Part shown: piece by piece, positions 30,583 to 35,970 of the stretch
Layout of the letters: the number at the start of each line of letters is the position of its first letter
Numbering within the stretch: position 1 is the first letter of the stretch
Assembly: GCF_016598485.1 (NCBI RefSeq)
Contig: NZ_JAEMUW010000001.1
Span: 124,001 to 188,000 of the forward strand
Direction of reading: 5' to 3'
Source: Micromonospora coerulea
GTDB taxonomy: Bacteria; Actinomycetota; Actinomycetes; Mycobacteriales; Micromonosporaceae
DNA: 64,000 nt
Program-made: the position numbers and the translations under genes
The notes under the pieces: generated by a model
What the model was told of the DNA's origin: nothing
Databases searched by the model: none
Seen by the model: only the letters and a program-made list of their open reading frames with translations

Positions 30583-31938
30583 ATGGGCCGGTTGTTCGGC
30601 ACGGACGGCGTTCGCGGGCGGGCGAACGCAGATCTCACCCCGGAGTTGGCGCTCGCGGTGGCGGTGGCCGCCGCCCACACGCTCGCCGAGACGGACAGGA
30701 GCCATCCGCCGCTCGCCGTGGTGGGCCGGGACACCCGGGCCAGCGGCGAGATGCTGGAGGCGGCCGTGGTGGCCGGTCTCACCAGCGCCGGCGCCAACGT
30801 GGTCCGGGTCGGCGTGCTGCCCACCCCCGCGGTGGCGTTCCTCACCGCGGAGGCGAAGGCCGACCTGGGCGTGATGCTCTCCGCGTCGCACAACCCGATG
30901 CCCGACAACGGGATCAAGCTCTTCGCCGCCGGCGGGCACAAGCTGCCGGACGAGATCGAGATGCGGATCGAGGCGGCGGTCGAGGCGAACGCCACCACGG
31001 CGTGGGACCGGCCGATCGGGGCCGGCGTCGGCCGGGTGCACGACCTGCTCGACGGTGCCGACCACTACGTCCAGCACCTCGTCGGCACGGTGCCGCACCG
31101 CCTCGAGGGCATCAAGGTCGTGGTGGACTGCGCGAACGGCGCCGCCGCCGAGGTCGCCCCAGTGGCGTACCGGGAGGCGGGCGCCGAGGTGATCGCCATC
31201 CACGCCGAGCCGGACGGGCTCAACATCAACGACGACTGCGGCTCCAACCACATCGACGCGCTCCGCGCCGCCGTGGTCGAGCACGGCGCGCACCTGGGGA
31301 TCGCGCACGACGGCGACGCCGACCGGTGCGTCGCGGTCACCGCCGACGGCGAGGAGGTCGACGGCGACCAGCTGATGGCGATCCTCGCGCTGGCCATGCG
31401 CGAGGCGGGCGAGCTGACCCAGGACACCCTGGTCGCCACCGTGATGAGCAACCTCGGCCTGCGGCTGGCGATGTCCGCGCAGGGCATCCGGCTGGTCGAG
31501 ACCAAGGTCGGCGACCGCTACGTGCTGGAGGAGCTGCGCGCCTCGGGCCTGGCGCTGGGCGGGGAGCAGAGCGGCCACATCGTCATGCCGGCGTTCGCCA
31601 CCACCGGCGACGGCGTGCTGACCGGGCTGCACCTGATGTCCCGGATGGCCGCCACCGGCAAGTCGCTGGCCGAACTGGGCTCCGTGGTGACCAAGCTGCC
31701 CCAGGTGCTGATCAACGTGCCGGTGGGCGACCGCACCGTGGGCGCCGCCGCGCCGGCCGTCCGCGCCGAGGTGGAGCGGGCCGAGGCCGAGCTGGGCGAG
31801 ACCGGCCGGGTGCTGCTGCGCCCGTCGGGCACCGAGCCGCTGGTTCGGGTGATGGTCGAGGCGGCCACCGAGGCGACGGCCCGCGAGGTGGCCGAGCGCA
31901 TCGCCGAGCAGGTCCGCGCCGCCAGCCCGACCGCCTGA
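30583..31938 (+). CDS. glmM: Phosphoglucosamine mutase GlmM
   Basis: Converts glucosamine 6-phosphate to glucosamine 1-phosphate for peptidoglycan precursor synthesis. The 451-residue protein begins [12 protein letters not shown], has the active-site phosphoserine loop SASHNP (Ser102), the metal-binding DGDADR loop, the sugar-binding GGEQSGH, and the phosphate-binding [12 protein letters not shown]. The ATG follows GGAGG by about nine bases. It sits downstream of rplM-rpsI, as in many actinobacteria, and works with glmS encoded at 37018. Confidence 0.97.
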
Positions 31939-31987: not shown

Positions 31988-32743
<756 letters not shown>

Positions 32744-32745
32744 CG

Positions 32746-33120
32746 TTACTCCTCTGCCAGTAGTCGTGCCGTCGGGATCCGCCGCAGCAGCGCGGCCGGC
32801 ACCAGCGCGGCGACGCAGGTGACCAGCACACCGGTTGCCGCCACCAGGGCGGCGACCAGCACCAGCGCGGCCGGGAGGTCGCCGACCAGCCAGGCCGCCC
32901 CGGCCAGCCCCAGCGCCGCCCCGGAGAGCGCGCCGAGCAGACCGAGGGTGAGCCCCTCGTACCCGATCAGCCGGCCCAGCGCGGCGTCGGTCCAGCCGAT
33001 CGCGCGCAGCGTCGCCAGCTCCGCGGCCCGGTCCCGGATGTTGAGGTAGAGCACGTCGGCGACGGCGGCGGCGCCGAGCAGCACCGTCGCGACGGCGGCC
33101 ATGGTGTCCGGGCCTCGCAC
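32746..33120 (-). pseudogene. FtsX-like ABC permease, C-terminal remnant
   Basis: Only about 124 codons remain: a hydrophobic helix (VATVLLGAAAVADVLYL), the conserved cytoplasmic NIRDRAAELATLRAIGW that is the signature of the last FtsX domain, and two more helices ending PTARLLAEE. A complete permease of this type has several hundred residues, with this domain at its very end. Similarity stops near 33120, where the opposite-strand PadR remnant begins. The first available GTG would start it mid-helix, so it is probably not functional. It abuts the ATPase gene by two bases. Confidence 0.75.
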
Positions 33121-33584
33121 ACTCAGGGAGACGGGACGGCCTGGTGGTCGCCGAGCGGCAGGCCCAGGCGGTGAAGCCCGACCGGGTGGTCTACGAGATC
33201 ACCCAGGCGGGCCGGGCCGAGCTCGACCGGTGGCTCGGCGAGCCCAGCCCCCGCAGCGGCGGCTTCCGGGACGACTTCTTCCTCAAGGTCACCGCCGCGG
33301 CCCGCTCCGGGCAGCCGGCCACCGTCCGGACGGTGCTCGGCAACCAGCGCGGGCACCTGATGCGCGAGCTGTGCAACCTCGACGGGTTGCGCCGCCGCAC
33401 CGAGGATCCCGTGGTCGGTCTGCTGCTCACCGCGGCGAGCCGGCACGTCGAGGCGGATCTCGCCTTCGTCGACGACGCCGAGGCGGTGCTGCTCGCCGAT
33501 GGCGGCGCACTGCTCGACACGCTTCAGGCGGGCCGGCCCGAGGCTGCCGACCGGCGGCCCGGCCCGATCCGGGCGACGGGCTGA
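33121..33584 (+). pseudogene. PadR-like transcriptional regulator, C-terminal remnant
   Basis: The reading frame gives the end of a winged helix (RRDGLVVAER, VKPDRVVYEITQAGRAELDRWL) and the helical dimerisation domain of a PadR-family regulator. The N-terminal helix-turn-helix that PadR proteins need for DNA recognition is missing. The frame loses similarity upstream of about 33126, at the same point where the minus-strand permease is cut. The best remaining start is GTG 33144 (146 codons, no ribosome site). PadR genes are commonly divergent from the MacB-like transporters they regulate, so one deletion of the shared promoter region explains both remnants. Confidence 0.72.
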
Positions 33585-33667: not shown

Positions 33668-34777
33668 TCAGGCGGCCTGGACCCGGTGCAGGAACCGCTC
33701 GGCCAGCGCGACCACCTGCGCGGCGTCCAACTCGCCCGCCGGGCCGGCCACCGTCACCTCGGCCATGGCCAGGCCCGGCACGTCGGTGTCCTGCCAGCCG
33801 CCGACGAACCACGCCTTCTCCTCCGCTGCGAGGGCGAGGTTGGCGTCGTTCAACGCGCGGGCCGGATGCGGCAGCCAGAGGCGGAACTGGTGGGTGTGCG
33901 GCGGCGCCGGATGCACCCGGGCGCCGGGCAGGGTGGCCAGCACCGCGGCCACCTCCTTCGCGTGCGCCACGTGGCCGGCCAGCCGGGGCAGCTCCCGGTC
34001 CAGGCCGGCGAGCGCGGCGAGGGCCGCCGGCCACTGCTGGAACACGTTGCCGCCGTAGCGGTGCCGCCAGGCCCGGGCGTAGCGGGCCAGGTCGGCGGAG
34101 CCGGCCAGCGCGGCACCGGAGTGGCCGCCGAGGGACTTGTAGAAGGAGACGTAGACGCTGTCGGCGAGGCCGGCGACCTCGGCCAGGGACCGACCGAGGT
34201 GGACGGTGGACTCCCAGAGCCGGGCGCCGTCGAGGTGCACCCGCGCCCCCCGGCCGCGGGCCGCCGCGACCACCGCCACCAGCTCGTCCCAGGTCGGCAG
34301 CACGAAGCCGGCGTCGCGCAGCGGCAGTTCGAGCAGCAGGGTGCCGATCGGTTCGTCGAGCGCGTCCACCTCCTCCGCCGTCGGGTTGCGCGGGGCCTGC
34401 GTGGTGAGCACCGCCCGCAGCCCGCCGAGCATCGCGTACGCGTCCCGCTCGTGCACCAGCGGGTGGCTCAGCGGGTGCAGGCCGACCGCGCTGCGGCCGG
34501 TCACCTCCGTGCCGTAGCGCATCGCGAGCTGCTGGGCCATGGTGCCGGTGGGGAAGAAGACGGCGGCCTCCGTGCCCAGCAGCCCGGCGACCCGGCGTTC
34601 CACCGCCTCCACCGCGCCGCCCTCGCCGTAGATGTCCGGCAGCAGGTCGTCGGGGACGGCGGCCCGGATCGTGTCGAGCTGCTCGGCGACCGAGGCCGGC
34701 CGGATCCCGGAGAGCACGGTGTCGCAGCCGCGCAGCGCCGTCACCCGGCGGATCCGGTCGACGTACGCGTCGGTCAT
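33668..34777 (-). CDS. Threonine aldolase family PLP enzyme
   Basis: Fold-type I PLP enzyme of the beta-eliminating lyase/threonine aldolase family, 369 residues. Visible features are YGEGGAVEAVERRVAGLLG, the VFFPTGTMAQQLA cofactor loop, HLDGARLWES with the conserved Asp and Arg, and SFYKSLGG holding the Schiff-base lysine. Family members split L-threonine or L-allo-threonine into glycine and acetaldehyde, but bacterial paralogues may use other beta-hydroxy amino acids. The ATG overlaps the stop of the upstream aminotransferase gene as ATGA, so both are made from one transcript. Confidence 0.87.
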   Translation of the reverse strand: MTDAYVDRIRRVTALRGCDTVLSGIRPASVAEQLDTIRAAVPDDLLPDIYGEGGAVEAVERRVAGLLGTEAAVFFPTGTMAQQLAMRYGTEVTGRSAVGLHPLSHPLVHERDAYAMLGGLRAVLTTQAPRNPTAEEVDALDEPIGTLLLELPLRDAGFVLPTWDELVAVVAAARGRGARVHLDGARLWESTVHLGRSLAEVAGLADSVYVSFYKSLGGHSGAALAGSADLARYARAWRHRYGGNVFQQWPAALAALAGLDRELPRLAGHVAHAKEVAAVLATLPGARVHPAPPHTHQFRLWLPHPARALNDANLALAAEEKAWFVGGWQDTDVPGLAMAEVTVAGPAGELDAAQVVALAERFLHRVQAA

Positions 34778-35970
34778 CGGGGCTCCTTCAGTCGGCGCAG
34801 CCGGGTGACCGCCTGGGTCAGCACCTCCGGGCGCTTGCAGAACGCGAACCGGACCAGCCTCCGGCCCGCCTCCGGGTCGTCGTAGAAGACCTGGGTGGGC
34901 ACCGCCACCACGCCGCACCGCTCGGGCAGCGACCGGCAGAACTCCACCCCGTCCCGGCCGCCCAGCGGCGTGACGTCGGCGGTGACGAAGTACGTCCCCT
35001 CCGGGGCGTACACCGCGAAGCCCGCGTCGGTGAGCCCGGCGACGAGCTGGTCGCGCCGCCGCCGCATGCCGTCGGCGAAGTCGGCGAAGTAGGTGTCCGG
35101 CAGGGCCAGCGCCACCGCCACCGCCGGTTGCAGCGGGCCGGCGTTGACGAAGGTGAGGAACTGCTTGACCCGCAGCACGGCGGAGACCAGCGGCGCCGGC
35201 CCGCTCACCCAGCCGACCTTCCAGCCGGTGCAGGAGAAGGTCTTGCCGGCCGAGGAGATCCGCAGCGTGCGCTCCCGCATCCCGGGCAGCGTGGCCAGCG
35301 GCACGTGCGGCGCGGCGGCGTCCGGGAAGACCAGGTGCTCGTACACCTCGTCGGTGACCGCGTAGGCGTCGTGCTCGTGGCACAGCTCGGCGACCAGCGC
35401 CAGCTCGTCGGGGGTGAACACCTTGCCGGTCGGGTTGTGCGGTGAGTTCAGCAGCACCAGCCGGGTCCGCGGGCCGAACGCGGCGCGCAGCTCCGCCGGG
35501 TCGAAGGCGTACCGGCCGTCGGCGGCCGGGCGCAGTGTGACCGGGCGGCGGGCCGCGCCAGCCAGCGCGATCGAGGCGGCGTACGAGTCGTAGTACGGCT
35601 CGAAGCAGACCACCTCGTCGCCCGGCTCACAGAGGGCGAGGATGCTGGCGGCGATCGCCTCGGTGGCGCCGGCCGTCACCACGATCTCGCCGTCCGGGTC
35701 GTACGCCAGCCCCCAGAACCGGCGCTGATGGTCGGCGACGGCCGCGCGCAGCGCCGGGATCCCGGGGCCCGGCGGGTACTGGTTGTGGCCGGAGCACAGC
35801 GCCTCGGCGGCCGCGGCCAGCATCTCCGGCGGGCCGTCGGTGTCGGGGAACCCCTGGCCGAGGTTGACCGCGCCGGTACGCACGGCGAGCGCGGACATCT
35901 CGGCGAAGATGGTCGTGCCGAACGGCCGCATCCGGGCCACCAGCGGGTCGACATCGGGGAGTGTCGTCAC
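34774..35970 (-). CDS. PLP-dependent aminotransferase, class I/II (DapC/kynurenine aminotransferase-like)
   Basis: Aminotransferase of 398 residues from the GTG at 35970. Conserved segments: NLGQGFPDTDGPPEML, ITAGATEAI-like VVTAGATEAIAAS, LLNSPHNPTGKVF (cofactor-binding Asn), DEVYEHLVF, and SSAGKTFSCTGWKVGW with the PLP lysine. This pattern fits the kynurenine/glutamine transaminase-like group that also contains succinyldiaminopimelate aminotransferases of actinobacteria; which reaction it does here is open. Earlier in-frame codons are excluded because a TAGGCT -10 element lies just before this GTG. It is co-transcribed with the threonine-aldolase-like gene. Confidence 0.88.
   Translation of the reverse strand: MTTLPDVDPLVARMRPFGTTIFAEMSALAVRTGAVNLGQGFPDTDGPPEMLAAAAEALCSGHNQYPPGPGIPALRAAVADHQRRFWGLAYDPDGEIVVTAGATEAIAASILALCEPGDEVVCFEPYYDSYAASIALAGAARRPVTLRPAADGRYAFDPAELRAAFGPRTRLVLLNSPHNPTGKVFTPDELALVAELCHEHDAYAVTDEVYEHLVFPDAAAPHVPLATLPGMRERTLRISSAGKTFSCTGWKVGWVSGPAPLVSAVLRVKQFLTFVNAGPLQPAVAVALALPDTYFADFADGMRRRRDQLVAGLTDAGFAVYAPEGTYFVTADVTPLGGRDGVEFCRSLPERCGVVAVPTQVFYDDPEAGRRLVRFAFCKRPEVLTQAVTRLRRLKEPR

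Follow-up and report, generated by a model that had tools for sequence, protein, structure and literature searches.

How two divergently oriented genes came to lose their beginnings at the same point is the question raised by a locus in a 64,000-nucleotide stretch of DNA from Micromonospora coerulea, a soil bacterium. The whole stretch is called the window here, and positions are given in its own numbering. The source genome (G000) comprises 6.8 Mb in 136 contigs and is 99.99% complete. The original prediction placed a deletion scar at about 33.12 kb, where it saw an FtsX-type permease gene on the minus strand and a PadR regulator gene on the plus strand cut together. The claim of a common cut was borne out by alignment; the position was not, and has to be moved to 33132-33134, which lies within the interval of 33100-33140 then given.

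The left neighbour of the module is the conserved glmM (30583-31938, plus strand, start picked by eye), which we take to encode phosphoglucosamine mutase. It is followed by a full-length gene for a MacB/LolD/FtsE-like transporter ATPase (31988-32743, minus strand; PF00005, ABC_tran, 109 bits), by the permease remnant (32746-33132, minus strand), and by the PadR remnant (33132-33584, plus strand); base 33132 is common to both remnants. To the right lie a presumably threonine-aldolase-like gene (33668-34777, minus strand), which is the neighbour in a subset of relatives, and a gene that we likewise assume to be aminotransferase-like (34774-35931, minus strand, start picked by eye), the conserved right neighbour. 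The order glmM, module, aminotransferase is otherwise that of many relatives.

What remains of the two truncated genes can be read from their domains. In the minus-strand open reading frame 32746-33120 (124 amino acids), Pfam recognizes only the C-terminal FtsX domain (PF02687, 40.3 bits), and with NCBIfam none of the matches listed for the permease reaches its cut-off. The intact permease of M. halophytica (L042) has 939 residues and two FtsX stretches; the window copy has a single, C-terminal one, consistent with the predicted loss of its N-terminal part. The plus-strand frame 33144-33584, which opens at the first in-frame start of the PadR remnant, a GTG at 33144, gives only PF10400 (22.7 bits), and the Pfam search returned no match to the winged-helix domain PF03551 in the window copy. 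Intact PadR of M. halophytica has PF03551 (64.8 bits) as well as PF10400. The cut falls at PadR codon 50, i.e. inside PF03551 (residues 7-81 in L042), so that the start of this domain is lost and its end is kept; the expected loss of the helix-turn-helix has to be qualified to that extent. Judging by the fold of this family, the recognition helix presumably belongs to the lost part.

Alignment of 5 kb of the window with 39 related loci delimits the junction closely. The left-hand match ends at 33131-33134 in 27 loci, in two of which (L041 and L063) a second permease gene is what matched. On the right, the match sets in precisely at 33132 in 34 loci; the remaining loci are more distant, with matches that stop early, or are without the side in question. 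The two homologous halves abut directly at a single junction, without any filler. Twenty-two loci (21 from Micromonospora and one from Phytohabitans) could be aligned at the junction, with the left flank within ftsX and the right flank at PadR codon 50, and compared with them the window lacks a net 2,649-2,719 bp. This supports the proposal that one deletion removed the divergent promoter region and both gene starts. Relative to M. halophytica (permease of 939 codons, PadR of 199 codons and 97 bp between them, with starts chosen by us) the net loss is 2,678 bp: permease codons 1-811, the 97-bp divergent region and PadR codons 1-49. The window thus keeps the last 128 of 939 permease codons with the stop (32746-33132), and PadR from codon 50 onward, with nothing of its upstream region. 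Since the entire intergenic region was removed, the promoters are presumably lost with it and the remnants would not be expressed.

The possibility that the lost part had moved elsewhere in the genome was ruled out by a search with the complete permease (a query of 941 residues, i.e. the 939 codons plus two residues preceding the chosen start). Its sole match in the 6.8-Mb assembly was residues 811-941 at the window locus itself (86% identity), and no other copy of the 811 lost codons was found there.

A survey of the genus places the window form among its relatives. It covered 160 genomes including G000, and at least 55 of the 159 others carry the PadR half; strong matches were used together with two short FtsX remnants (G190 and G152), and G000 itself and 25 weaker, short rows were left out. 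Among the matches listed, relatives with an intact locus, which the original prediction had called for, were plentiful: 47 of the 55 genomes whose PadR half matched strongly have a spacing of 2,641-2,716 bp between the two flanking halves. In none of the 55, again among the matches listed, are the halves joined as in the window, so that the short genes in relatives that would have told against a private loss were not seen; for the genomes surveyed this also rules out a deletion common to the genus. As to the others, the PadR and FtsX halves are on separate contigs in G023 and G157, the PadR-proximal permease is lost entirely or for the most part in G016, G033, G152 and G190, and the FtsX half is missing from G036 and G142. 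Many named relatives give near-full-length matches for both FtsX and PadR. In G119, two FtsX matches (query 1-405, 78% identity) extend 22 bases beyond the junction point, which we take as probable alignment drift because the PadR half of this genome sits 2,641 bp away.

The bases at the breakpoint bear on how the ends were joined. The window reads GGAGAC/GGGACGG (the slash marks the junction), and relatives usually show CCC/GGGACGG or CCC/GCGACGG as right flank; their left flanks mostly end in GAC or CAC and continue with GG, CG, CA or AG. One to three bases can therefore be assigned to either side and may represent microhomology; which of the positions 33132-33134 is the exact point is decided by the ancestral left flank. 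Comparison of the flanks revealed no longer repeat at the breakpoint ends. The genome encodes Ku (PF02735, 186 bits, above the cut-off), a family that was found in one of 14 control genomes, that of Bacillus subtilis. With microhomology of 1-3 bp, no longer repeat and Ku encoded, end joining is the likely mechanism.

We consider it highly probable that one deletion of some 2.7 kb, closed by end joining, has given rise to a young pseudogene cluster. Such a deletion, sealed with at most 1-3 bp of microhomology, would have taken the 5′ 811 codons of the ftsX-type permease gene, the divergent promoter region and padR as far as codon 49, and would have inactivated an apparently PadR-controlled permease-ATPase transporter module; control of the transporter by PadR is suggested by the divergent arrangement. 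The downstream ATPase gene would have been deprived of its upstream promoter region and of the permease, and carries a 3-residue Walker A insertion besides, making the whole module most likely a young pseudogene cluster.

An assembler that left out 2.7 kb of real sequence would leave the same picture, and the junction does rest on one assembly, in a draft state of 136 contigs, of one strain of the species. We nevertheless hold an assembly error to be very improbable. The breakpoint has but 1-3 bp in common and no repeat that would invite collapse, the missing 811 codons are on no other contig, the junction is internal to a contig of 493,893 bp, and a comparable deletion is found in G142, a genome assembled in two contigs. 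Two separate deletions, one per gene, have nothing found in their favour and are less probable still: there is a single junction without filler, stepwise loss to one point needs more events, and no strain with one truncation only was seen among the 55 genomes (among the matches listed).

Further damage to the module is seen in the ATPase itself. Its Walker A loop reads GASGSGSSGKST, with three extra residues that correspond in the DNA to a perfect 9-bp tandem duplication (32584-32601, minus strand). The duplication is private to the window: the relatives gave 49 ATPase matches, and each of the 48 that span the motif has G[P/A]SGSGKST without the insertion, the 49th (L081) breaking off before Walker A. 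These 48 matches stand for fewer than 48 species, as L038/L085, L039/L086, L051/L090 and L045/L076/L089 repeat genomes. The same 3-residue excess of the window ATPase appears in its alignment with MacB (5lj9); the first domain of the top match, 8j5q, was aligned to it without gap. The uninterrupted pattern GxSGSGKST is absent from the window ATPase, and the loose GxxxxGK[ST] is still matched. With the loose P-loop pattern still passing, simple motif scans would miss the duplication. In NCBIfam the best models are those of MacB, FtsE and LolD, the best 25 of 183 matches all being under their cut-offs. The gap between glmM and the ATPase gene is only 49 bp, so that the second permease that some relatives have at this place is absent from the window. 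Together with the own-genome search, which returned the remnant alone, this agrees with the earlier view that the ATPase was probably left without partner. The enzyme is probably damaged as well as partnerless, since an insertion in the Walker A loop is likely to abolish its activity.

If the remnants are non-functional, the time since the loss should be reflected in their sequence. The dN/dS values of the window are close to the relatives' means for the ATPase (0.232 versus 0.228), the FtsX part (0.224 versus 0.244), the PadR part (0.194 versus 0.190) and the GlmM control (0.104 versus 0.119). The set consisted of 23 hand-picked loci out of 52, from 22 distinct relatives, L051 and L090 being one assembly, so that neither member of this pair can show a change that the other lacks. 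With the window counted in, the rows numbered 19 for GlmM, 24 each for the ATPase, the FtsX part and the PadR part, 22 for the aminotransferase (truncated L087 dropped) and 9 for the threonine-aldolase-like gene. At 257 columns invariant across the other rows, the window has three private changes; the other rows have a mean of 2.26 and a maximum of 11, and 61 would be expected if the remnants had been neutral along the full length of the terminal branch (dS about 0.11). For a neutral fraction of 0.15, P is 0.0036 with background and 0.019 without; for a fraction of 0.10 it is 0.033 and 0.14, respectively. Neither pairwise dN/dS nor private changes at invariant columns thus revealed an excess of amino-acid change in the remnants, and relaxed selection was dropped as a proof of pseudogene status, there being no signal; the data serve solely as an age bound. 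Either the event is recent compared with the sampled split, or constraint still acts on the remnants. Should they be non-functional, the absence of excess change makes the loss a young one, confined to roughly the final 10-15% of the sampled branch, a bound that assumes neutral remnants after the deletion and refers to the nearest sampled relatives, which may not be the true nearest. That the short forms are functional, e.g. as a miniature FtsX and a C-terminal PadR domain that does not bind DNA, would fit the open remnant frames and the dN/dS that is not raised, but it is the least probable reading of all, as unchanged dN/dS is expected without function if the event is young, the divergent region is gone together with both starts and the greater part of the permease, and the window form occurs in none of the 55 other genomes among the matches listed.

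The probable single-step deletion in the window is paralleled elsewhere in the genus. In G142 (L081, 4090-5065), PadR begins abruptly at residue 17 and the ATPase at residue 93, the two truncated genes are one base apart on opposite strands, and no match to the permease was found in the 10-kb locus. Judged by the codons left in each genome, this deletion is independent of the one in the window, because PadR codons missing from the window survive in G142, and permease and ATPase codons missing from G142 survive in the window. In G036, PadR alone remains. Rearrangements of other kinds are also seen. In L041, L063, L078 and L079 the PadR-proximal permease is wholly or mostly lost, and PadR, the ATPase and a second permease on the glmM side are kept, as if the ATPase had switched partner. 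In L039/L086 and L087 a second permease is placed beyond PadR, ahead of the threonine-aldolase-like gene. Tandem copies of parts of the PadR-permease-ATPase module occur in L088 (G195) and in L089, which shares its contig with L045/L076 (Micromonospora sp. HK10) and has a PadR remnant separating the copies. In the genus, the module seems dispensable and subject to frequent turnover. One may speculate that its loss was selected for, beyond being merely tolerated, since two independent deletions, one in the window and one in G142, each took the starts of regulator and transporter together, and the window ATPase suffered a lesion of its own in the Walker A loop. We think this unlikely; such a pattern would be expected if an active pump were costly and the regulator useless or harmful without it.

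The locus offers a clean example of how a divergent regulator-transporter pair may be lost in one step; its age can be roughly bounded, and another genome of the genus provides an independent counterpart. It is also one where annotation pipelines could call three short or intact-looking genes, a permease, a regulator and an ATPase, to none of which the function of its family can be assigned without a test. A narrow search of open-licence literature, which says little, found nothing on PadR together with FtsX and an ABC transporter in Micromonospora, nor on PadR-family genes divergent from ABC transporters in Streptomyces.

How does the locus compare with known systems? ABC transporters of the FtsX/MacB/LolCDE type (type VII) are treated in PMC5985334 and PMC12646458. 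Like them, the locus combines an FtsX-like permease domain with an ATPase closest to MacB, FtsE and LolD; the difference is that 128 permease codons are retained, against 939 residues with two FtsX stretches in the permease of M. halophytica. A similar contrast holds for the PadR-family regulators, the intact homologue in L042 having both PF03551 and PF10400 and the window copy being without its first 49 codons and without a match to PF03551. As regards the event itself, PMC5124664 and PMC5869714 deal with NHEJ-like genes and with the repair of double-strand breaks in Streptomyces. Our case differs from that work in that the mechanism is deduced from sequence rather than observed, and it resembles end-joined deletions of actinobacteria that have Ku in that the genome likewise encodes Ku and the junction has 1-3 bp of microhomology and no repeat. 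Among known processes, the window case is one of ordinary pseudogenisation, i.e. gene decay, and as such it is well supported.
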